Position numbers and translations under genes: made by a program. DNA of 64,000 nt from Bradymonas sediminis (GTDB lineage Bacteria > Myxococcota_A > Bradymonadia > Bradymonadales > Bradymonadaceae): contig NZ_CP030032.1 of NCBI RefSeq assembly GCF_003258315.1, forward strand, positions 2,333,804 through 2,397,803, in the 5' to 3' direction. The notes beneath the pieces are model-generated. The model saw only the letters and a program-made list of their open reading frames with translations. It did not search any database and was not told where the DNA came from. Positions 2,297-54,165 of this stretch are shown one piece after another (position 1 is the first letter of the stretch; the number at the start of each line of letters is the position of its first letter).

Positions 2297-3856
2297 TTAT
2301 TCCTGCAACTCAGCCCCACGACACGTCACCGGGGCGCGTTGCTCACAGATGCTCGCTCCCGCGAAGGTCTCGCCGGCGAGGCGAGCGTCGACGAAATCCA
2401 AAATCTCGGGGAGCGCGAGTAAGGTCGTCTCGCCATGCTTGGCGCCCGCGCATTCCAGATATTCCATCTGCAAGCCCTGCGCGCAGAGGGTGTCGAAGGA
2501 GTCGCGCTCAATCGCCGTATCGACGAGTTCGTCGTTCTCGCCCAACACAAAGAGAATCCCGTAGGAGTCGCTCTCGGGCGCGATGCGCTCGACGCTCGTG
2601 GTCGTCAAACCGTTCTCCGCGGTGATGCAGCCCCAGGGCTGCATATCGAGGAGCGTGCCGTCGACGGCCGCGTCGATAAGCGGTTGCTGGAAGATATCGG
2701 CCGGCGAGGTCGGCTCAGCAGGAAGGACGTCATCGAAGCTGCAGCCGGCGCCCAGCGCAGCCGGCACATCCACGTCGAGCGGCGACACGAAGACCTCGTC
2801 GAGGCGGTCCCCATAACCGTACCAACCCGCGCTCGCCCCGAAGAACGCCGCGGTATTTCCGCTGGCCCTCACCAGGTCTTTGAGCGCGCGCTCCATCTGC
2901 CCGATCATATCGGCCGGCGGGACGGTCGCGACGGTCCCGAGGAGCTCAAATTCCTGGGCATAATACGGGGCCAAGCGGTCCATCCAAAGCGCCGCATGCC
3001 CGCCCTGGGAGCCACCGATGGTGATGATGCGCGGGTTCAAACACCAATCGCCCCGCTCTTCGCCGCTCATGCGCATCGCCGCGCGCACCGCGTCGAAAGA
3101 CGAAATCGCGGCCGACTGACCGACAAGATAGGGATGCAGATATTCGGTGGGCTCGCCGACCCCGTTAAGGCCAATATAATCCGGCGCGACGACGATATTG
3201 CCGAAGGATGCGATAAGCGCCGCCAACGCCTGATACTCGAGCTCTTCGGTGGCCGAACACGCGTCGGTAAACCCGGTCGTGCCGTGCAAGAGGACGATGA
3301 TATCTTTGGGCGCGTCACCGGGCTCAAAGTCGGTCGGGAACGCGACCAGCGCGCTCGCCTGAACCAACTCACCGCGGTCCTGGGTTGTATACTCGTATTG
3401 GCGAACCCGCACGTCATGGGCGATCGCGCGCGGCGCGTTCGCCCCGAGCGCGGTGATGGCCGCCTCGAGCGCCGCGACCGTGAAGTTGCGCTTCAGGCCC
3501 AATTTGGTGACTTCACCCAGCCCCTCACCGGCTGCGCCCTGGGCGAAATCGGTCAGCCAGCCAAAGGATGCCTGGCCACATTGGGCGGCGTCGGCGGCAA
3601 AGGCCGCGGTCTCGGGCGTGCTCGCGACAAGCATCTCTGGGGGCATCGGACACCCATCGGAGGTCACGTCCTCGCCGAAGGCATCGCCACCGGTGCCATC
3701 CTCTTCGCCCGCATCCGTGGCGTCGACGTCCGTGGAATCGACGGCGTCGCCGCCGGCGTCACTGACGTTTGACGGCGAGGAGTCATCCCCGCAGCCAACC
3801 GCGACACACCAAAAACACATCACCAATAACGCGCGCCATCGAATATTCGTTGTCAT
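2297..3856 (-). CDS. Secreted lipase-like alpha/beta hydrolase lipoprotein
   Basis: The chosen start (MTTNIRW) gives a short lipoprotein signal ending VAVGC; an ATG five codons earlier (3871) is possible but its GAGG is too close. After an acidic linker of about 45 residues comes an alpha/beta hydrolase of the secretory-lipase/cutinase-like type. The nucleophile elbow GGSQGG puts the Ser near residue 283, the oxyanion segment is LLHGTTG, and the likely acid and base are in LGENDE and AKHGET near the C-terminus. It is probably anchored at the outer membrane and acts on esters outside the cytoplasm. The exact substrate cannot be read from sequence. It is followed by a terminator shared with the thioredoxin gene. 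Confidence 0.82.
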   Translation of the reverse strand: MTTNIRWRALLVMCFWCVAVGCGDDSSPSNVSDAGGDAVDSTDVDATDAGEEDGTGGDAFGEDVTSDGCPMPPEMLVASTPETAAFAADAAQCGQASFGWLTDFAQGAAGEGLGEVTKLGLKRNFTVAALEAAITALGANAPRAIAHDVRVRQYEYTTQDRGELVQASALVAFPTDFEPGDAPKDIIVLLHGTTGFTDACSATEELEYQALAALIASFGNIVVAPDYIGLNGVGEPTEYLHPYLVGQSAAISSFDAVRAAMRMSGEERGDWCLNPRIITIGGSQGGHAALWMDRLAPYYAQEFELLGTVATVPPADMIGQMERALKDLVRASGNTAAFFGASAGWYGYGDRLDEVFVSPLDVDVPAALGAGCSFDDVLPAEPTSPADIFQQPLIDAAVDGTLLDMQPWGCITAENGLTTTSVERIAPESDSYGILFVLGENDELVDTAIERDSFDTLCAQGLQMEYLECAGAKHGETTLLALPEILDFVDARLAGETFAGASICEQRAPVTCRGAELQE

Positions 3857-16189: not shown

Positions 16190-16870
16190 ATGCAATTACT
16201 TTATCGAGCCCGAGTTCTTCAGCTCCTCTGCCTCGCCCTTCTCGGCGTACCGCTGCTCGGCGCCTGCAACCCTGACGCGCCCGACACGGTCGTCGAGGTG
16301 TGCGGCAATCTCAGCATTCCGGAGGAGATCGATTCGTTGCGCGTCGAGATCACCGACCAGGACAATAACCTTATCCGCGAAGGGGTGCGCGAACTGTGGA
16401 GTTGCCCGGGGCCTTCGCTGATGGCGCTGCCCCAGAGGGTCGAGTTTGCGCCCGTCGACGGCGATGTATTCGTGCGCATCCAGGGCATCCGAGACGGAGT
16501 CCCGGTGATCGAGAATACCCTGAGAAAGAGCTTAAACGCTGACGATTTCCGCGCGACCGTTTCGCTGGAGCAAGGCTGCCTGGGCATGAGATGCGGACCG
16601 GGACGGACCTGCTCGCAGGGGCAATGCGAGTTAATCGCCCTGGCCTCCGACACGATCTCGGCCTGTGCGGGCCTAAGCACCCACGACACCCCGGACGCCT
16701 CGGAGCCCGTTGCCGACGCGGGCTCGGACGCGGGGAACCCCGTCGAACCCCCGGGCGCCTATTTATGCCCCCAGCCAGAACCCGATATTTCCGAGGATCC
16801 CGACGCCACAGCGGTCGAGGACGAATCTGGCCTTCAAACAACCGGCGCCGACGCCAACGAGGGATCGTGA
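16190..16870 (+). CDS. Lipoprotein with small Cys motif, function unknown
   Basis: The start MQLLYRA is chosen because it gives a normal lipoprotein signal ending LLGAC; the frame extends upstream to 16082 without signal character. The ribosome site is weak (GGAAG, about 12 bases away). The mature part of about 200 residues holds a beta-rich domain (residues 40-120) and a short Cys motif CLGMRCGPGRTCSQGQC, which is common in lipoproteins of myxobacteria-like organisms. The C-terminus is acidic and low in complexity. Its stop overlaps the start of the next gene (GTGA), so the two are translationally coupled and probably act together at the cell surface. Confidence 0.78.
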   Translation: MQLLYRARVLQLLCLALLGVPLLGACNPDAPDTVVEVCGNLSIPEEIDSLRVEITDQDNNLIREGVRELWSCPGPSLMALPQRVEFAPVDGDVFVRIQGIRDGVPVIENTLRKSLNADDFRATVSLEQGCLGMRCGPGRTCSQGQCELIALASDTISACAGLSTHDTPDASEPVADAGSDAGNPVEPPGAYLCPQPEPDISEDPDATAVEDESGLQTTGADANEGS

Positions 16871-18867
16871 AAGCTGTAAAACACCTCGCTCAACGTCAAT
16901 GCATCGGTCGCCGCGGTCAAACGCGCCGGCGGCTCGCTGCCGTCGGCGCCCTTTTGTGCCTAATTCCGCTGCTAAGCTGCACCGACGTCGGGTTATATAG
17001 CCCCGGCAAGGAGCCGAAACAATCCGATCGACTCTCGCTCACCGGGCGCGTCTGCACCGAAGATCCCCTGCGGGCGAAGTTTCCGATGCGCGTGATTGTC
17101 CTGGCCGATCAGGCGGCGGGGCCCTTGTTCTCGGACTACGACGCGGCGGGGCTTCGCGCCGGCGCGCTCAACGACTTTGTGCGCACCACGCTCAACCAGA
17201 GCAACGTCGAAATGGCGGTCATTGGCTACGGCGGCCGCCCCGAGAAGCTCGCCCCAACCGACGGCGCGTTCACCCGAAACCCGGGCGAACTCTTCAACGC
17301 GGTCAACCGCCTCACGCTGGCAAAGCCCTGCCAGGGCGAGCGCTGTCGCGACTATCGCGAAGCCCTGCGCAACGCGCGCGCGCTGATCGAAGACGACCTC
17401 GCCGCCACACCAAAGGGTGAGCGCCTGCGCACCCACTACGCCCTGGTGATGATCAACGCTGGCCCTCAGCAGCCCATCGCGGTCGGCAGCGATTGCTGTC
17501 AGGGCACGACTCTCGAGTGTATCGAAGACAACGACCAGCCCTCCCCCGCCTGTGAGACCCAATTAGACGCCGGCATCATCGCGTCGATGCGCAAATACGC
17601 CATCAGCCAGGGCGCGGCCGGGCTAGGATTCCAGGCGATGCATCTGGCCGCCGAGGCCGACGACGCCATCAACCTGCAGGTCCAGGACGCCATGGAGGCG
17701 ATGGCCTTTGCCGGCGGCGGCGCCTACCAGCGATTCAACAACGCCTCGGGCTTCTCCATCAACACCATCGAGTTGCTCCGCTCCCGCGCCGAGATGCGCC
17801 CGAAGTTGCTGATGGCGTCCAATATCAATGCCCTGGCGGACCCCGATGGGCCGGTGGTGGACTCCGACGGGGATGGCCTGAGTGACGCCGAAGAGCTGCG
17901 CCTGGGCACCGATCCCACCAACCCTGACACCGACGGCGACGCGATCAGCGACCTGGTCGAAGCCCTTATGGGCCTGGACCCGCTTCATTTTGACCGCCCC
18001 GCCGCCTGCAGCGCCATCGTGCCGGCCGATCGCGACACCGACCTCGACGGGCTCACAGACTGCGAAGAGGCGCTGCTCGGCACCGACCCGACCCTGGTGG
18101 ACACCGACGGCGACGGGATTCCGGACCGCCTGGAGTTGATTCAGGGCACCGACTATCTGAACCCGGATACCCAGGCAGACACCGACGGCGACGGGGTCTC
18201 AAACGGCGAGGAGTTGCTCCAGCACACCGACCCTCGAAGCACCGACACCCGCGCGCACCTCTCATTTGGGTATCGCTATGAGGTCAATGATCTGGGCAGA
18301 ATGGAGAGCCTGGTCGCCGACCGGCCCCGCTTTGTCACCGGCGTTCATATCACCGCGATTAGCGAGGCCACCACGGCCGGCGTCGGCGAGCTATTCTTCG
18401 ACCCGGCCGGCCCCACCCTGCAGTGGCGCGACGCCGACGACGGCGTGCCCGGCCCGCCGGTGCTGATCGACGCCGCCGGCGTCTTCGAGTTGGACTCTGC
18501 GCGCTCCGCAGGGCTGCCCGACGACCAGAAGCGCAAGATTTCGGTCGACATTAATCCAACGCTATTGCCCGACGAGGCGCGCAGCGAGACCATCCGCGTC
18601 GTCGCCGAGCAGCGCCACTGCATGGATTATACGATCCGCAATATCAAATTGATGTCCACCGTTGAGCTCGCCGACGGCACGCCCGCCGGCATCAACAATA
18701 TTCTGCTCTATTTTAACACCGCCGTGGGCGGGCGCCTCGATGCCCCGGGCCCGTTTCGCATGGCCCAGATCCCGGTGCTCTACCGCCCTCCCAACACCCG
18801 CGTCCCGAGCGACGCGGTGCTCGGGGTTAAGGACGACGAGTTCGTGCGGCCGAACCTGACGCGGTGA
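16867..18867 (+). CDS. Surface lipoprotein with VWA-like domain and TSP3-type calcium repeats
   Basis: The GTG at 16867 overlaps the previous stop by four bases and is followed by a lipoprotein signal ending LLSC; the longer frame from 16591 overlaps the upstream gene and is rejected. Residues about 65-300 look like a von Willebrand A fold (MRVIVLADQAAG ... HYALVMINAG), but the metal site DxSxS is replaced by DQAAG. Residues about 330-460 contain thrombospondin type 3-like repeats of the DSDGDGLSDAEE and DTDGDGIPDRLE type, which bind calcium. A beta-rich C-terminal region follows. It likely forms a calcium-stiffened surface structure or adhesin. The last is inference. Confidence 0.82.
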   Translation: MKAVKHLAQRQCIGRRGQTRRRLAAVGALLCLIPLLSCTDVGLYSPGKEPKQSDRLSLTGRVCTEDPLRAKFPMRVIVLADQAAGPLFSDYDAAGLRAGALNDFVRTTLNQSNVEMAVIGYGGRPEKLAPTDGAFTRNPGELFNAVNRLTLAKPCQGERCRDYREALRNARALIEDDLAATPKGERLRTHYALVMINAGPQQPIAVGSDCCQGTTLECIEDNDQPSPACETQLDAGIIASMRKYAISQGAAGLGFQAMHLAAEADDAINLQVQDAMEAMAFAGGGAYQRFNNASGFSINTIELLRSRAEMRPKLLMASNINALADPDGPVVDSDGDGLSDAEELRLGTDPTNPDTDGDAISDLVEALMGLDPLHFDRPAACSAIVPADRDTDLDGLTDCEEALLGTDPTLVDTDGDGIPDRLELIQGTDYLNPDTQADTDGDGVSNGEELLQHTDPRSTDTRAHLSFGYRYEVNDLGRMESLVADRPRFVTGVHITAISEATTAGVGELFFDPAGPTLQWRDADDGVPGPPVLIDAAGVFELDSARSAGLPDDQKRKISVDINPTLLPDEARSETIRVVAEQRHCMDYTIRNIKLMSTVELADGTPAGINNILLYFNTAVGGRLDAPGPFRMAQIPVLYRPPNTRVPSDAVLGVKDDEFVRPNLTR

Positions 18868-19032
18868 GGGCGGATAAGTTTGGTGTTTTCCTAATTTTCA
18901 GCTTAAAGAAAGACATCAAACTTGGTAGTAGATAACCCCCAACTTTTTTTGTCATGCTTGTTCGGGCGACTGCAATCTTGGTAGCATCGCCTTAGGATTT
19001 CAACTCTTTAACTCCGCACCCAAGGTGTCTCT

Positions 19033-19713
19033 GTGGAAGTGATTACGACATATTTGGAAGATGGCGGCCGGGTCATGTATGTGATTCTGTCCGTCTCAAT
19101 ACTCGGCGTATTGATCTTCGTAGAGCGCCTCTTCGCCCTCTACATTCAAAACCGGCTCAACGCGCGCTCGTTTATTCGCCAGGTTGTCACGCACGTGGAG
19201 AACCGCCGGTTCCGCGAGGCCCTGGATATGTGTGAAATCTCGTCGCATCACCCGCTCGGCCGGGTCATGAAGGCCGGGATTCTGCGGGCCAATCGTCGCG
19301 ACACCGAGATTGAGCGCGCGATGGAAAGCGAGATGCTCGCCTCCCTATTGACGCTGCGAAAACGCATCTCGCTGATGGCTCTTCTGGCCAATAGCTCGAC
19401 GCTCCTGGGACTTCTGGGGACGATTTTCGGCCTGATCTCGGCCTTCGCCAGTATCAGTATGGCCTCGGCGGCTGCCCGCCAGGACGCGCTGGCGGCCGGT
19501 ATTTCGACCGCGATGTATACCACCGCGTTCGGCATTAGCGTGGCCGTGCCGCTGCTGGTCTTCCATCACATCCTGTCGAACCGCTCCGAGAAGATTCTGA
19601 TTGAAACCGAAGGCGGCGCCACCACCCTGCTGGTCGCGCTGACCGGCGTGGTCCGCGAGATTCGCGCGCCCAATAGCGCCAAGACCGACGGCTCAACCGA
19701 GATCGCGAGCTAA
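19033..19713 (+). CDS. TolQ/ExbB/MotA-type proton channel subunit
   Basis: The GTG start has AGGTGTCTCT upstream. The 226-residue protein has three membrane segments: one near residues 12-32, and two near 115-185 with the conserved block LLANSSTLLGLLGTIFGLISAF, which lines the proton path in this family. Such proteins form a pentamer around a dimer of ExbD/TolR-type stators and turn proton flow into force on a periplasmic partner. It heads an operon with two ExbD-like genes and an AgmX-type protein, the same set of parts used by Agl/Glt gliding motors and Tol/Ton systems. Which of these it serves is open. Confidence 0.92.
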   Translation: MEVITTYLEDGGRVMYVILSVSILGVLIFVERLFALYIQNRLNARSFIRQVVTHVENRRFREALDMCEISSHHPLGRVMKAGILRANRRDTEIERAMESEMLASLLTLRKRISLMALLANSSTLLGLLGTIFGLISAFASISMASAAARQDALAAGISTAMYTTAFGISVAVPLLVFHHILSNRSEKILIETEGGATTLLVALTGVVREIRAPNSAKTDGSTEIAS

Positions 19714-19805
19714 GCGCGCCTTTTATTTGAGCGCGCCCTTATCAGGTGAAAACCAACGAGCGCGGACCCCCGACTCCAACCTCTGCGGCCCCCGAAGGAC
19801 TCGAA

Positions 19806-20390
19806 GTGTTTGACGAATTACGCCGCGCAAAAGAAGAGGCCGAAGAACTCGACCTCACCCCGGTCATGAACCTCTTTATGGTTCTGATTCCGTTTTTGTT
19901 GATGGGAGCTGCCTTCTTTACGGTCGGCGTGATCCCGACCTCGACCCCGAACCACACGCCGGGCGGCTCGAACGCGCCGCCCAACCCGGCCTCGGTCTCG
20001 GCCTCCCTGGTGATTGAGCCCGACGAGCTGCGCCTGACCTTCTCCAGCGCGGATGTTGATCCGGCGCAGCTGGACCAATTGTCCACGCAATGGAGCGTCG
20101 AAAATGGCGAGATGCCGGCGCAGAAGCTTCAGGATCACCTGCGCAGCGTGAAGCAGAAATACCCCAAAAGCACGACCCTGATCGTGCTGCCTTCCGGCGA
20201 CCTGCCCTACCAAAAATTGGTGAGCGTGCTCGACAAAACGCGCGAGTTTAAATCCGGCGCGACCCCAGAAGGCGACCCGATCTACACCGAATTATTCCCG
20301 GTCACCGTCTTCTCAAAACTCATCAAGGAAGACCCGGCCGAGGCCGCCGGTGACGACGCACCCGGCGCCCCAGCAGGGGAGGCACCATGA
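19806..20390 (+). CDS. ExbD/TolR-type stator protein 1
   Basis: Start choice: GTG at 19806 has AAGGA six bases upstream; an in-frame GTG at 19746 would add 20 residues but lacks a ribosome site. The N-terminus holds the key pattern LDLTPVMNLFMVLIPFLL, where the Asp just before or in the single membrane segment is the proton-carrying site in ExbD/TolR (D-x-x-x-x-D pattern partly changed). A Pro-, Asn-rich linker leads to a periplasmic domain of about 120 residues and an Ala-rich tail. It overlaps the next gene by four bases (ATGA), so the two stators are co-translated. Confidence 0.85.
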   Translation: MFDELRRAKEEAEELDLTPVMNLFMVLIPFLLMGAAFFTVGVIPTSTPNHTPGGSNAPPNPASVSASLVIEPDELRLTFSSADVDPAQLDQLSTQWSVENGEMPAQKLQDHLRSVKQKYPKSTTLIVLPSGDLPYQKLVSVLDKTREFKSGATPEGDPIYTELFPVTVFSKLIKEDPAEAAGDDAPGAPAGEAP

Positions 20391-20866
20391 AGAGTAAATT
20401 CGTAAAATCAAAGTCCCCGCCCGGGCTGATGCTGACCTCATTGCTCGATATGTTCACGATTATCTTGATCTTTTTGATCGTGAACTTTCAGGCCGAGGAC
20501 CACAACTTCGAGCTCAACGACCAGATTGAACTGCCGACCTCGACCTCGCGCTCGCCGTTTAAGCCATCCACCGGGGTCACGGTCACGGGCGATAAGATCC
20601 TGGTCGGCAAAGATATCATCCTGAATATCGCCCCAGAGGGGCTGCCGCGCGCGTATTTCGACGACGGTAAAATTCCTGAGCTCGTCGCGCGCCTGGAGAC
20701 CGACTTCGCCGACGTCACCAAGGCCCAGGCGCGCGACCCCGAGATTGAGGCCATTGTGCTGGTGCAAGCCGACAAGGACCTCGACTACGACACCCTCTAT
20801 TTGGTGCTCCGCTCCGCATCGATCGCGGGATTCTCTAAATATCGCATGGCGACCATGAAACAATGA
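20387..20866 (+). CDS. ExbD/TolR-type stator protein 2
   Basis: GGGGAGG upstream and an ATGA overlap with the preceding gene support the start. The 159-residue protein has a short basic N-terminus, then LMLTSLLDMFTIILIFLIVNF, the single membrane segment with the conserved Asp of the ExbD/TolR family, and a periplasmic domain of about 115 residues that ends with the family-like D-x-x-Y-x-x-L-Y-x-V-L pattern. Two different ExbD-like stators after one TolQ-like channel is the layout known for AglR-AglQ-AglS of gliding motors. The stop overlaps the following gene by four bases. Confidence 0.88.
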   Translation: MKSKFVKSKSPPGLMLTSLLDMFTIILIFLIVNFQAEDHNFELNDQIELPTSTSRSPFKPSTGVTVTGDKILVGKDIILNIAPEGLPRAYFDDGKIPELVARLETDFADVTKAQARDPEIEAIVLVQADKDLDYDTLYLVLRSASIAGFSKYRMATMKQ

Positions 20867-21285
20867 AAATCATGACACCAAAAAACCGAATCCTCGCCCT
20901 TCTCCCGGCCGCTCTCGGCCTGACCCTGGCGCTGACGTTTGCGACACCAGCCGCGGCCCAAGATAAGTCCGCCGACTCCACGCAAGACGCCGGCGAAGAC
21001 GGCGCGGCGGCCGACGGCGACGGCGAAGTTGCTGAAGGCGAGGCGGACACCTCCGCGACCCCGTCGCTGCGCCGCGGCAACCGCATGGAGTTCGACGCGC
21101 GCCTGATCCGCGGTGAGTCCGCAGGCTCCGGCGCGGTCTTCCTATTCCAGCGCGCGCAGCGGCCGCTGCCATCGATGATCAACAAACGAAATAGCTTTTT
21201 GCGCGACACCGTGGATACCTTGCTTGGCGCACAATGGGCCGAGAAGTTCGACGAAGCTCAGACTAAAAACGCCCAAACGGATTGA
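20863..21285 (+). CDS. Small exported protein in motor operon, function unknown
   Basis: The ATG overlaps the previous stop (ATGA). A signal peptide of about 32 residues ends at ATPAAAQ. An acidic low-complexity stretch of 35 residues follows. The C-terminal 65 residues look conserved and positively charged: MEFDARLIRGESAGSGAVFL, then QRAQRPLPSMINKRNSF and a short amphipathic helix. No known family was recognised. Location and coupling imply a periplasmic accessory subunit of the motor. It could link the stators to the TonB-like protein encoded next, which is inference only. Confidence 0.8.
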   Translation: MKIMTPKNRILALLPAALGLTLALTFATPAAAQDKSADSTQDAGEDGAAADGDGEVAEGEADTSATPSLRRGNRMEFDARLIRGESAGSGAVFLFQRAQRPLPSMINKRNSFLRDTVDTLLGAQWAEKFDEAQTKNAQTD

Positions 21286-21293
21286 CCCCAACG

Positions 21294-24176
21294 ATGAGCC
21301 AATCCAGTAAAATCCGATACGTCCCGCTCTCCTCGCTCACCACCCACAATGAGCTGGAGTCGTGGCTTGCCTGCGCGATTCACGCCGACGGCGCGCGCAA
21401 CCTGGTCGTCATCGAGCGCATCCCGCGCGTGGTGAGCCAGCAGCAGGAATTGCTGCGCGCGGGCTACCGCGAGATCAAGCGCGCCGCGGCCCTGGACCAC
21501 CGCGGCCTGCTGAGCGCGCGCGACCTTTTTCGCCGCGATGACGGCTATTATATCGTCCGAAATTTCGCCCCGGCGGAGTCTCTCGACTATATTTGGCGCT
21601 CCTATGCCGCCGAGGGACGCCCCGCGCCCCTGGCCCTGACGGCGCGGGTCATCGCGGAGGCCGCGGCCGCCCTGGACTTCGTGCGCCGCCAGGACGCCGA
21701 AGCGCAATCGCCGCTGGTCCACGCACACCTGAGCCCGCATAGCCTCTTGTTGGGCTACGACGGGAAGACCCGCATCGTCGGCCACGGCACCTCAACGATC
21801 CACAAGGCCCTGGGCCAGGCCCGAGGCGGCCTGCCGACGAGTAACCTCGAATATTGCGCCCCGGAGTTGTTCAACGGCGCCCCGGCGGACGCGCGCAGCG
21901 ACATCTTCGCCCTCGGCGTCATCCTCTGGGAATTACTCACCGGCAAGCGACTCTTCGCCCGCTCGGGCCCCTTCGAAGTGATGCGCGCCATCTGCGACGA
22001 GCCGGTCACCAAGCCATCGGCCATCGCCTCAAGCGTGCCCTCGCGCCTGGACGCCATCGTCGGGCGCGTCCTGGCCAAGGAGCCGAGCCGACGCTTCGCG
22101 GACTATACCCAATTTCTGGGCGCGCTGGAGTCGATCCTCCAGTTACCGGGCGTGTCGGACCAGTCCATGCGCCTCGTGTCGCTGCTTGAGGAGCGCTTTC
22201 CGATGCGCGCCTCGACCTGGGGCGAGGTGTCGCGCGCCGAGAACGCCGGTGATTTCAAACGCGCGTCTACGCTGGTCACCGCCCTGGAACAGGCACCTGC
22301 GCCAACTCCCGCCGCCCCGCCAGCCCACCTTGATGAGCCGTTTTTGCGCGATGATCTTGGCGCAGACCTCGAGGCGGACCTGCTGGGAGAGCGCGCTGCT
22401 CCGACGGCGCCGGCGCAAGAAGAAACGGTGGAGCGGGCCGTTCCGCAGGCCTTGCTGAGTCTCCAATCCGAGCATTCGCACGCCTTTGAGGAGCCCACGC
22501 AAATAACGGGCCCGTCGCCGTCCCAATCGCAGCCTGCGCCGTCCATTCCCGACGCAGCGCTTGATTTGCCCAGCCCGCCGCCGGCCGACAAGCCGCAGCC
22601 GGCAAATTTCGATCTCGACGCGAGCGCCGCGTTCTCGGCGCCCGAACCTCCGGTCGTTGAGCCCGCGCTCCCCCAGCAATTTCAAACGCCAGCGCCCGCT
22701 CCATCTCTGCCCGAGGCGCCGTCGACGCCGCCCCAGCCCGACGCCTATTTTGACGCGCTCGATTGGGAGTTCGTCGGCGACGACGATGACGAAGATGAGG
22801 CGTTCGAGGCCCCCTTCGCCCTCGAAGAGATCCTGAAGCCCGCCTCACAGGTGGGCGCGGCGCGCGAGGAGCGCGCCGGCTCCAACGTCATGGAGCTCGT
22901 GCGCCACGCCAACGACCGCGCCTTCGCGATCTACACGTTGCGCGGGTTGAAGCGGCGCTATCGCGACCGCGAAGCGCCTTTTAGCGCCACGCTGGGGACG
23001 AAAGCCGGCACGATTAAGATTCGCAAGAAGCTCGCACAATCACAGGAGCTGCGGGGCTGGATTGAACGGCGTAACGACGGCAATCGCCGGCGCCCCATCG
23101 ACGATCTTAGCCAAAAAATCGAGCTGAAACCCGGCGACCAATGCGAACTTCAGCTCGGCGAGGTCGCCTGGCGCATCCGCCTATTTCGCCCGCCCTTGGC
23201 CCCGCCGAGCTCGCAGCCAACCCTCACGCGCCAGAATATCACGCTCTACGCCGTATCCCTGGGCCTCGCGATTCTCTTCCACCTGGGCGCGATGCTCGGC
23301 GTGGTCGGCATCCAGGCGGCCGGTGTGCAGATGACCGTCAAGCCCGACCCGGAGCAGATCGAGGCGTTCGCTGAGGGCAAACTCGCCGACCTCAAAAAAC
23401 CCACGCCGCCCGAGGAGCCCAAGCCGCTGCCAAAGAAGTTAGAGCCGACCAAGCCGACCCCCGCCCCGGTGCCCGACGACCCCGCGGAGCAAGAGGTCCA
23501 GATCCCGGAGACCATTAAAAAGGCGCTGGCGAAACGAACATCGACGCGCACCAACGCCAACGCCAGCGACAGCGAGAAGGCCGAGGACGTGCTCAATATG
23601 CTCAAATCGCCCAACCCCGGCAGCGGCTCGAGCATCAAGGATGTGGTGAGCAATATCGACGCGGTGCAAAAGCCCGGCGGCGGCGACGGCTCGTTTAATG
23701 TCAGCGGCGCCCTCGACGCGCTCAAGGGGAATGAGGTCAATATGGCCGTGGGCGGCGGCGGAAAACGCGGCAAAACCAGCGGCTCCAGCGCCCTGAGCAA
23801 AAATGTCGGCAAGGTCGAGAAACGCAAGTCCTCGGGCAAGGTCCGCGGCAAGGTGTCGAGCATCAAGGCCCTGGGTAAAGTCTCCGGCTCGCTGACGCGC
23901 GCCGACGTGGCGAAGACCCTGGACCGGTATATCGGCAAAATGCAGGCATGTTATGAGAGCCGGCTCACCGACAACCCCTCGCTCTCGGGCAAAGTTGTCT
24001 TCTCATGGACCGTCAAGACCGATGGCCGCGTCAAAGACGTGCGCCAACGCTCCAGCACGCTGGCCGACGCCAAGACAACGCGCTGCCTGAGCGGGGTCGT
24101 CAAGAGCATGAAATTCCCGCGCCCCAAAGGCGGAGAGGTCGAGATCTCGTATCCCTTTATGTTCCAGCAGCGCTAA
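21294..24176 (+). CDS. Pseudokinase-transmembrane-AgmX/TonB-like fusion protein
   Basis: The ATG at 21294 is used; a TTG at 21282 that overlaps the previous stop is possible. Of about 961 residues, the first 280 follow a Ser/Thr kinase fold, with CAPELFNG, RSDIFALGVILWELLTG and the C-lobe intact. The catalytic residues are lost: the HRD loop reads HAHLSPHS (Asp to Ser), DFG reads VGHG, and the VAIK Lys is replaced (VVIE). A Pro/Ala-rich linker, a small folded domain (about 540-640) and a single membrane segment (about 649-674) follow. The periplasmic part is Pro/Lys-rich and ends in an AgmX/PglI C-terminal domain with two Cys. The likely role is to pass a cytoplasmic signal to a proton-driven periplasmic arm. 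Confidence 0.87.
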   Translation: MSQSSKIRYVPLSSLTTHNELESWLACAIHADGARNLVVIERIPRVVSQQQELLRAGYREIKRAAALDHRGLLSARDLFRRDDGYYIVRNFAPAESLDYIWRSYAAEGRPAPLALTARVIAEAAAALDFVRRQDAEAQSPLVHAHLSPHSLLLGYDGKTRIVGHGTSTIHKALGQARGGLPTSNLEYCAPELFNGAPADARSDIFALGVILWELLTGKRLFARSGPFEVMRAICDEPVTKPSAIASSVPSRLDAIVGRVLAKEPSRRFADYTQFLGALESILQLPGVSDQSMRLVSLLEERFPMRASTWGEVSRAENAGDFKRASTLVTALEQAPAPTPAAPPAHLDEPFLRDDLGADLEADLLGERAAPTAPAQEETVERAVPQALLSLQSEHSHAFEEPTQITGPSPSQSQPAPSIPDAALDLPSPPPADKPQPANFDLDASAAFSAPEPPVVEPALPQQFQTPAPAPSLPEAPSTPPQPDAYFDALDWEFVGDDDDEDEAFEAPFALEEILKPASQVGAAREERAGSNVMELVRHANDRAFAIYTLRGLKRRYRDREAPFSATLGTKAGTIKIRKKLAQSQELRGWIERRNDGNRRRPIDDLSQKIELKPGDQCELQLGEVAWRIRLFRPPLAPPSSQPTLTRQNITLYAVSLGLAILFHLGAMLGVVGIQAAGVQMTVKPDPEQIEAFAEGKLADLKKPTPPEEPKPLPKKLEPTKPTPAPVPDDPAEQEVQIPETIKKALAKRTSTRTNANASDSEKAEDVLNMLKSPNPGSGSSIKDVVSNIDAVQKPGGGDGSFNVSGALDALKGNEVNMAVGGGGKRGKTSGSSALSKNVGKVEKRKSSGKVRGKVSSIKALGKVSGSLTRADVAKTLDRYIGKMQACYESRLTDNPSLSGKVVFSWTVKTDGRVKDVRQRSSTLADAKTTRCLSGVVKSMKFPRPKGGEVEISYPFMFQQR

Positions 24177-24202: not shown

Positions 24203-24790
24203 ATGACAACATCGCGTTTTGGATGCCCTGGAAGAAGGCTCTTGCTGAAGGCATCGGCGGCAGCTCTATTGGCAGGATTGCTGGTCGCCGGTTGCGGTGA
24301 CGCCGCCGACTCAAGCGGCGGCCCCGCGATTCTTCCCCACCAGTCGCCGGTCTCGTTTGGCGAGCTCTATCCGCAGGGAAATAGGGACCCGGAGCCGGGG
24401 AGTTCGCTTCGAACCCCCTACGAATGGGTGCTGTTGCTGCAATCAAGCGGCGAGGCGGCGCTCAAGATCGACAAGGTCTGCCTGGTCGGCACCCGTGAAG
24501 ATGGCGCCGACGTCAGCGCGTTTAGCGTCGAGGTCGAGAACCAGGACCTGCCGGCGACCGTGGAGTCGCGGCGCGACTTCGGCGTGCGCCTGACCTATGA
24601 CCGCCAGAGCCCGAGCGCCGACGCCGACCAGATCGCGCTGGTCGTCCAGTCGAACGCCACAAACTTCCCGACCCTCATCGTGCCGGTTTGCGCCCGGGTC
24701 ATCGGCGAGGGAGAAGAGCGCGGGAGCGTGGCCTGCGAGGCGCCCGTGAGCGTGCCCGCCGGCGAGAGCGACCCGACGCTGTGCGACTAA
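24203..24790 (+). CDS. Lipoprotein at the end of the motor operon, function unknown
   Basis: The start MTTSRFG is chosen because it begins a typical signal ending LLVAGC; the frame opens far upstream inside the previous gene. The 196-residue protein, after a short linker, has a single beta-rich domain with the pattern of an immunoglobulin-like ASH or 'anchor' domain (VSFGELYPQG ... VCLVG ... VCARVIGEG). It lies 26 bases after the pseudokinase fusion gene and before a terminator, so it belongs to the same transcript. An outer-membrane attachment point for the periplasmic machine is a reasonable but untested idea. Confidence 0.75.
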   Translation: MTTSRFGCPGRRLLLKASAAALLAGLLVAGCGDAADSSGGPAILPHQSPVSFGELYPQGNRDPEPGSSLRTPYEWVLLLQSSGEAALKIDKVCLVGTREDGADVSAFSVEVENQDLPATVESRRDFGVRLTYDRQSPSADADQIALVVQSNATNFPTLIVPVCARVIGEGEERGSVACEAPVSVPAGESDPTLCD

Positions 24791-52800: not shown

Positions 52801-54165
52801 TTATTCGATACCGGTGAAGACGAAGGGATAGTTGATGATGCAGATACCGCCGTCGGGTTTGTCGAAGCGCATGCGCTGGATAACGCGAGCGATACAACCT
52901 TCGACTTTACGGTTATTCATGGTCGTGCTCGCGATGGAGGCGCTCATGACTTTTCCGTCCAGGCCGACTTTCCACTGAGCCGAGATTTTACCCGAGAGTT
53001 TCGGGTTCTGCTGAAGCTCACGCTCGAAGCAATACTTGATGGCGTTCGACTTGGCCGACACGACGCGGCGGATATTGCCCTTGTCGCAGAAGTCACCGAT
53101 CTGCGGGGTGCCCTGGCTCAACTTCGGCTTGACCTTACGCGCTTTCTTTTTGCCGATGCCGCCGCCGGTGCCTTTACCACCACCGGTGTCGACTTTACCG
53201 AGGCCCTGGATACGACCGAAGCCTTCGCCGCCGCCGCCTTTACCGACACCGCGCATTCCCATGCCGCCGGCGCCACGACCGATGACCAGGTCTCCACCTT
53301 CACCGCTCATCGCGACGTTCATCTTGGAGTCGAAGCCCTCCTGGTTGCCGAAGATATCCTTGAGCGGTCCTGCGCCCAAGATTTCGGAACCCAGAGCGGC
53401 GTTGACGCCGATATTCTTAACATCGATCTCGTCGACCATTTCGCCGTCCACTTTCGGGACTTTGGACTCCGGAATCTCGGAATCTTCGTCGCCAAATTTA
53501 CCCTCTTCACCACCGGCTTTTTTACCGGTCGTGTCTTCTTCGGGGATCTCGAGTTCCTCTTCTTCGAGAGGATCCGCGATATCTTCGGCCATAAACTCAA
53601 CAAAACGGTCGGATATCATCTGGCGCTCCAAATGGGCGTCGGGGTCGTAGCCCAACAACGTCCAGATCAAGAAGATAATATGCAGCATCGCTGACAGCGA
53701 GAGACACGCCAAAAGCGCCATCTCAATCCTGCCACGAATGCCGCGCGCCGGGATCACTTCGTTCTGAACGAGCACCTGGAAGAATACGTTAATATTCCCC
53801 AACTGGAACATGCCCCAGTCGCCCTCTTTGACGAGGACCTGGTACACATCGGCCGAGCCGTTCTCGGTATTCACCGAATCCTGGCGGCTGGCCTTCTTGT
53901 CCTCGATAAGCTCTTCGAGGTCCCAGTCTTCGCCGTCGACCGAAATCGAGCCGTCGATTTTATTGGTAAACCGAGCGGTATAACCCTCGTCGGTACGCTC
54001 AAACATCTGGAATAGCTCAGCTAATCCAGGGGCAGGAACCGAGAATTCGTTTCCATCGCCGATCCCTACGGTGACGATAGATTCATTCTTCTTGGTATAG
54101 GTTTTCTCTTGGAAAACCGTTCCATTCCAGACGATTGCGACTCTGAGGCAATGATCGTTTCTCAC
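52801..54165 (-). CDS. AgmX/PglI C-terminal domain protein with FHA-like N-terminus
   Basis: A GTG start has GGAG about eight bases upstream. The 454-residue protein has a cytoplasmic N-terminus of about 145 residues; the part VTVGIGDGNEFSVP resembles the phosphothreonine-binding FHA fold. A membrane helix at about 148-172 follows, then an acidic periplasmic linker (EEEELEIPEED) and a Gly-rich stretch (about 290-345). The last 95 residues form the AgmX/PglI (GltJ/GltG-type) C-terminal domain with Cys in CFEREL and EGCIARVIQRMRFDKP. It is a TonB-like force-transducing plan. It is unlinked to the motor operon at 19-24 kb, whose AgmX-type subunit has a pseudokinase in place of the FHA-like part. 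Confidence 0.87.
   Translation of the reverse strand: MRNDHCLRVAIVWNGTVFQEKTYTKKNESIVTVGIGDGNEFSVPAPGLAELFQMFERTDEGYTARFTNKIDGSISVDGEDWDLEELIEDKKASRQDSVNTENGSADVYQVLVKEGDWGMFQLGNINVFFQVLVQNEVIPARGIRGRIEMALLACLSLSAMLHIIFLIWTLLGYDPDAHLERQMISDRFVEFMAEDIADPLEEEELEIPEEDTTGKKAGGEEGKFGDEDSEIPESKVPKVDGEMVDEIDVKNIGVNAALGSEILGAGPLKDIFGNQEGFDSKMNVAMSGEGGDLVIGRGAGGMGMRGVGKGGGGEGFGRIQGLGKVDTGGGKGTGGGIGKKKARKVKPKLSQGTPQIGDFCDKGNIRRVVSAKSNAIKYCFERELQQNPKLSGKISAQWKVGLDGKVMSASIASTTMNNRKVEGCIARVIQRMRFDKPDGGICIINYPFVFTGIE

Follow-up and report, generated by a model that had tools for sequence, protein, structure and literature searches.

What does a kinase-like domain that, judged by its motifs, has lost catalysis do at the cytosolic end of a membrane-spanning motor arm? 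This question is raised by a gene at positions 21294-24176 (+) of the window, by which we mean the whole stretch of 64,000 nucleotides of Bradymonas sediminis DNA that was analyzed. The open reading frame runs from an ATG at 21294 to a stop at 24176 and encodes 960 amino acids. Its coordinates are those of the initial annotation, which described the product as a pseudokinase joined through a disordered linker and one membrane helix to an AgmX/PglI C-terminal domain. This arrangement holds. Absent from the annotation were a folded beta domain of ~100 amino acids, a helical tail behind the kinase domain and the operon with its ExbB/ExbD/ExbD genes. A chance or artefact origin of the kinase-arm fusion was ruled out by the Pfam match, the predicted structure and orthologs with an identical domain order.

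Results

A kinase fold without its catalytic residues

The pseudokinase domain comprises residues 1-290 (21294-22163, +). The Pfam family Pkinase (PF00069) matches residues 38-269 with E=2.2e-17, and the sequence matches of the N-terminus in the PDB are the kinases PknB and PknA. An AlphaFold2 model of the domain, based on an alignment of 7 orthologs, has a mean pLDDT of 87.1 and a pTM of 0.88. Of the five models, two were of good and three of poor quality (mean pLDDT 87, 87, 59, 56 and 47); therefore the depth of the alignment is limiting. The closest solved folds found with Foldseek are PknB and PknA from M. tuberculosis (E 4e-15), and the VIA superposition on PknA covers 254 residues with an rmsd of 2.0 and a Z of 29.1. 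Hence Pfam, AlphaFold2, Foldseek and VIA agree on the kinase fold that is expected of a pseudokinase.

The motifs were compared in an alignment with six canonical kinases from the same genome and one kinase from a related locus. In this alignment the glycine loop GxGxxG is missing, the Lys of VAIK is replaced by E41, HRD by H143-A-H145 (HAH; the Asp position is H145), the Asn of the catalytic loop by S150 and DFG by G163-H-G165 (GHG; the Asp position is G163). Thus all three of the residues by whose loss pseudokinases are recognized, namely the VAIK Lys, the HRD Asp and the DFG Asp, are gone, as the initial annotation had proposed. The alternative that a catalytic Lys or Asp is shifted in position was ruled out, since the alignment to the kinases of the same genome offers no substitute. 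The Glu of alphaC, the APE Glu (E191), the alphaF Asp (D203) and the alphaH/I Arg (R267) are kept. On these motifs the kinase fold of the arm would have lost catalysis.

The arm behind the kinase domain

The kinase domain is followed by a helical tail with an FPxRxxxW motif (residues 291-333, 22164-22292, +), the modelled helices of which are ordered, and by an acidic, Pro-rich linker that is disordered by its composition (residues 334-529, 22293-22880, +). Then comes a small all-beta middle domain (residues ~532-640, 22887-23213, +), for which the model of the C-terminal part gave pLDDT values mostly of 82-91. This domain is common to arms of the FHA and TPR types and lies partly within the match to the GltG profile NF033760.

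Hydropathy and the model place a single transmembrane helix at residues ~649-676 (23238-23321, +). The transmembrane helices of TonB and TolA carry an SxxxH motif; the motif here is AILFH, i.e. AxxxH and not SxxxH, with the His in an SxxxH-like position. This His is an invariant column in alignment A1 and is present in nearly all relatives. The translated periplasmic linker (23322-23894, +) is rich in Pro/Lys and in Gly, and its pLDDT is low, mostly <55.

The C-terminal domain (residues 868-958, 23895-24167, +) matches the NCBIfam profile myxo_SS_tail (NF033768) with E=1.1e-28 and 99 bits, the cut-off being 40. Foldseek matches to TonB C-terminal domains have E values from 6e-4 to 1.5e-2 and TMt values of 0.47-0.66 in the best ten, so that the domain is assigned a TonB fold on a modest match. 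The GltG equivalog profile NF033760 covers residues 603-959 only and scores 102.5 bits, where 650 are needed; Pfam detects no FHA domain at the N-terminus, where it finds Pkinase instead. For these two reasons the name GltG was rejected. Its transmembrane helix and AgmX/PglI domain, encoded next to one ExbB and two ExbDs, do place the protein with the GltG-like transducers in a wider sense. The window contains a second AgmX/GltG-like arm of 454 amino acids at 52804-54165 (-), which scores 167 bits with NF033760 and lacks any known type of cytosolic head.

The operon and its motor genes

The first gene of the operon (16867-18867, +; start estimated) encodes a VWA/TSP3-repeat lipoprotein (TSP3_bac E=3e-26; VWA_2 weak), the orthologs of which are found in the same place with identities of 35-53%. 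A partial MtsD-like match (E=1e-40) is far below the cut-off. The lipoprotein thus partly resembles MtsD/CglD-type proteins, and it may be the partner of the machine at the cell surface.

An ExbB/TolQ/AglR-like motor subunit, a conserved neighbour of the arm, is encoded at 19033-19713 (+; PF01618 E=1.4e-26). Two ExbD/TolR-like subunits are encoded at 19746-20390 (+; PF02472 E=1e-12) and 20387-20866 (+; PF02472 E=3.6e-13). The second subunit retains the Asp in the middle of the membrane (SLLDMFTIILIFL), unlike the first, in which an Asn takes its place (PVMNLFMVLIPFL) in the window as well as in L038, L039, L040, L041, L042, L048 and L099. The set of one ExbB and two ExbDs is that of AglRQS. 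A mid-membrane Asp has been stated for both AglQ and AglS (PMC9389320); with its Asn, subunit 1 departs from this type. The lasting Asn/Asp asymmetry points to an axle formed by a heterodimer in which one subunit carries protons.

The small secreted protein encoded at 20863-21285 (+) has a conserved MEFDARLIRGE motif and in-place orthologs with 40-72% local identity; by eye it is possibly GltF-like. The last gene encodes a small lipoprotein (24203-24790, +), with in-place orthologs (L038-L041 and L043) that are 42-49% identical. Its start was set at 24203, as the start of the open reading frame at 24005 lies too far upstream. The ortholog in L039 has a weak choice-of-anchor D match.

The order lipoprotein, ExbB, ExbD, ExbD, small secreted protein and arm is kept in L038, L039, L040, L041, L042 and L048. 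Downstream and on the opposite strand the relatives encode a GltC-like protein (NF033756 E 3e-15 to 6e-17), a TPR protein of ~1090 amino acids, which is the size of GltD, and a protein of ~200 amino acids. The counterparts of these genes are unlinked in the genome of the window, where the TPR ortholog, 1106 amino acids long and 50% identical, is found at G000:2119774. Judging from this gene content the operon looks like a further trans-envelope machine of the Agl-Glt type, with the 960-amino-acid protein in the position of GltG.

The same genome has at least two further Glt-like clusters, L053 and L054 (G000:372-381 kb and 3.66-3.67 Mb). L053 contains a separate GltJ-like zinc-ribbon arm and L054 a GltG with FHA, which scores 413 bits with NF033760, still below 650. 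Short arms are found at L057 and at position 52804 of the window.

Different heads on related arms

A search of 379 genomes of the phylum with the C-terminal half of the arm identified 22 genomes with close arms. The domain order of the window protein, for which the initial annotation had proposed a search in sequenced genomes, recurs in relatives: the kinase-type N-terminus occurs in nine genomes, eight of the window's family, including one that was detected at a contig end through its kinase domain, and one of another family. The same-family relatives are one member of the Lujinxingiaceae (Bradymonadales) and otherwise Myxococcales or Deltaproteobacteria MAGs. The N-terminus is of the FHA type in G254, G336, G119 and G058 and of the TPR type in G159 and G228, the latter assigned by its sequence likeness to G159. 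The arms of G053 (f3) and G265 (f53) are cut at contig starts, and their N-termini lie outside the sequence.

Arms with a TPR head are encoded at L099:6187-8736 and L100:8186-11113 in Sandaracinus-type genomes. The operon is complete at the TPR-type locus L099, and in other families the FHA-type loci have retained part or most of it. In L102 an FHA-type operon of this kind and a canonical Ser/Thr kinase gene (17576-19252, +) are arranged divergently; the kinase is the one clear active-kinase neighbour among the FHA loci that were read, and we do not claim a general link between kinases and the operon. L104 encodes an arm that has neither an FHA nor a kinase head, beside a kinase/NTPase-like fusion protein (1-2277 and 2308-3780, -).

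A tree of the C-terminal domains groups the kinase and TPR forms (support 96/96) and places the decayed forms of f3 next to them (92/91), with the FHA forms outside. A single kinase clade appears in 51% of the bootstrap trees. G043 falls outside the group of kinase, TPR and f3 forms; hence the kinase may predate this group or may have been gained independently. The occurrence of a kinase head where relatives carry FHA or TPR indicates that one docking module was swapped for another in evolution.

Catalytic residues drift, structural residues persist

The kinase domains of the orthologs are 26-33% identical to that of the window. The glycine loop and the Arg of HRD are altered in 9/9 kinase-type orthologs. 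The other catalytic elements drift: the beta3 Lys is retained in two of the nine (G031, G006), the Asp at the HRD position in two (G006, G017), the Asn of the catalytic loop in three (G031, G005, G006) and the Asp at the DFG position in five. All four are kept in G006 only (VVVKQI, HGD, N and DMG). In a seven-row alignment the invariant columns are for the most part structural (His143, Pro190-Glu191 of APE, Asp203, Trp212, Gly217 and Arg267). An AIC motif in alphaG is present in 8/9 kinase-type members and the F..R...W motif of the tail in 9/9, both being found in 0/7 ordinary kinases; together with the APE Glu, D203 and R267 they persist while the catalytic residues change.

A profile of the family kinase domain, with the best five candidates scored per genome, separates the members (306-508 bits) from the other kinases of the 379 genomes (<=266 bits). 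The domain of G005, which was left out of the model, scores 245 bits. No kinase domain off the arm was found to score like the family among these best five candidates per genome. The heads of G055, G047 and G043 are without a Pfam match and further decayed; the family profile recognizes them with E 1e-8, 1e-4 and 2e-8, respectively, as compared to 0.57 for the best shuffled decoy. The tail behind the kinase domain is still recognizable in the decayed members.

Possible phosphorylation motifs in the linkers

PknA-dependent sites are characterized by acidic residues ahead of the Thr (PMC7164672). The linkers of the kinase-type arms contain 26 acidic-T-Q/V sites as compared to 7.9 in shuffled sequences (0/5000); the Q/V+1 part of this motif was chosen after inspection. 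The linkers of FHA-type arms have 3 such sites versus 1.9 in shuffles, which is not above chance, and no enrichment was found in decayed or FHA-type members. The linker of the window protein itself has only two of these sites. In the genome of the window 35 matches to FHA and dozens to kinases were found.

Discussion

The pseudokinase arm is a real and conserved variant of the GltG/TonB-type transducers and not a new kind of machine. A core complex of GltC, GltD, GltE and GltG with AglRQS has been described by Luciano et al., who showed binding of GltG to AglR in M. xanthus (PMC3169522). The protein shares with GltG (PglI) of M. xanthus a cytosolic head, a middle region, one transmembrane helix, a periplasmic linker and an AgmX/TonB-like C-terminus; GltG works with an ExbB- and two ExbD-type proteins, as the present arm would too. 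The difference is at the N-terminus, which is FHA there and a pseudokinase with a helical tail here. With GltJ (AgmX) it shares the C-terminal domain and topology, but the head of GltJ is a zinc-ribbon/GYF. TonB and TolA resemble it in the His in an SxxxH-like position of the membrane helix, the extended linker and the fold of the C-terminal domain; however, they are usually without a cytosolic domain.

No pseudokinase on a TonB/AgmX arm was found in our literature search, in which many subscription papers were beyond reach. Dead kinases have a place in other envelope systems. EssB/YukC of type VIIb secretion has a cytosolic pseudokinase, one transmembrane helix and an extracytoplasmic domain, and it serves an envelope machine as a hub for interactions. 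YukC/EssB does not bind ATP; what it binds is its ATPase, at the FHA region (PMC9600267). It differs in that it is Gram-positive, has a helical extracellular domain and is without a TonB domain or an ExbBD motor. The neighbours of the window protein are ExbB/ExbD and lipoproteins instead of a type VII context, and its outer domain is TonB-like. In M. tuberculosis the pseudokinase tail of MviN (MurJ; ActPs3 family) recruits FhaA after phosphorylation by PknB (PMC12599244). MviN is also a membrane protein with a dead kinase domain tied to FHA signalling, but there the domain sits on a peptidoglycan-synthesis protein and not on a TonB-like arm.

We consider it fairly likely that the protein is the GltG/TonB-like arm that transmits force from the inner membrane towards the outer membrane in an Agl-Glt-type machine and that its head is a non-catalytic platform for docking and control. 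The conserved His in the membrane and the synteny with the motor genes suggest that the arm is coupled to its own ExbB-ExbD-ExbD motor, which would move the transmembrane helix; with these genes adjoining that of the arm, the proton drive assumed in the initial annotation is well founded. The periplasmic linker and the TonB-fold domain would extend to a partner in the outer membrane, which likely is linked to the operon's VWA/TSP3 surface lipoprotein. On the cytosolic side the pseudokinase would most likely stand in for the FHA head. Partners, which may be FHA proteins, a kinase or a cytosolic scaffold, could bind to its surface, to the family-specific tail or to phosphothreonines of the linker, and their binding would recruit or gate the motor arm. 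Docking is preferred because of the precedents of dead-kinase hubs, the sites in the linkers and the FHA and kinase matches in the genome; the head is probably wired to the Ser/Thr-kinase and FHA network of the cell. A more specific version of docking, in which a dead kinase and a phosphorylatable acidic linker replace the FHA head as a phospho-signalling hub and make the motor arm controllable by kinases and FHA proteins, is conceivable and we advance it tentatively.

The initial annotation had suggested a sensor, in which a nucleotide or metabolite occupies the pocket and gates the arm. The bilobal fold is predicted with good confidence, the alphaC Glu is kept, and some relatives retain the Lys, the Asn or the DFG Asp. 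Yet all ligands of ATP and Mg are gone in the window protein, the glycine loop is lost throughout the kinase-type members, the distant members are decayed further, and ATP is not bound by EssB/YukC or MviN, two comparable pseudokinases. The nucleotide part of the idea, the least supported in the annotation, is thus not borne out, although a ligand or a protein partner may still be bound; as a whole we regard a sensor as unlikely and less likely than a docking head.

It is a little less probable still that the kinase domain is a decaying passenger without function and that only the arm matters. Progressive decay in the f3 and f7 families and the presence of a TPR head instead of the kinase in another family fit this explanation, but orthologs of such low identity have preserved open frames, the residues that define the fold, the AIC motif and the tail, which is recognizable even in the decayed members.

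Some catalysis, by a weak kinase or by a transfer of the SelO or SidJ type, may persist in the G006 ortholog with its full set of Lys, Asp, Asn and DFG-position Asp; for the family we judge it improbable, as the members have no common set of polar residues in the pocket and their invariant columns are structural. That the protein is an ordinary TonB-like energiser of uptake through TonB-dependent receptors, unrelated to Agl-Glt, is just as hard to sustain: an ExbB/ExbD operon and a TonB-fold domain would suit it, but the conserved genes of the operon do not include one for a receptor, and one ExbB with two ExbDs, the GltG-like profile match and the GltC/GltD-like neighbours fit Agl-Glt.

The pseudokinase-type operons add a TonB-type arm to the small number of bacterial pseudokinases for which a membrane-machine context is known, namely EssB/YukC and MviN. 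If the phospho-hub version were true, the arm would have turned from a reader of phosphorylated partners into a phosphorylated partner itself. With the G006 ortholog, in which the canonical polar catalytic residues are present, and other members at stages of decay, the path from kinase to scaffold is traceable within one family. Most work on arms of the TonB, TolA and GltG type approaches them from the periplasm; a set of orthologous motor operons in which the head of the arm is FHA, TPR or a pseudokinase is a natural experiment on the role of the cytosolic end.
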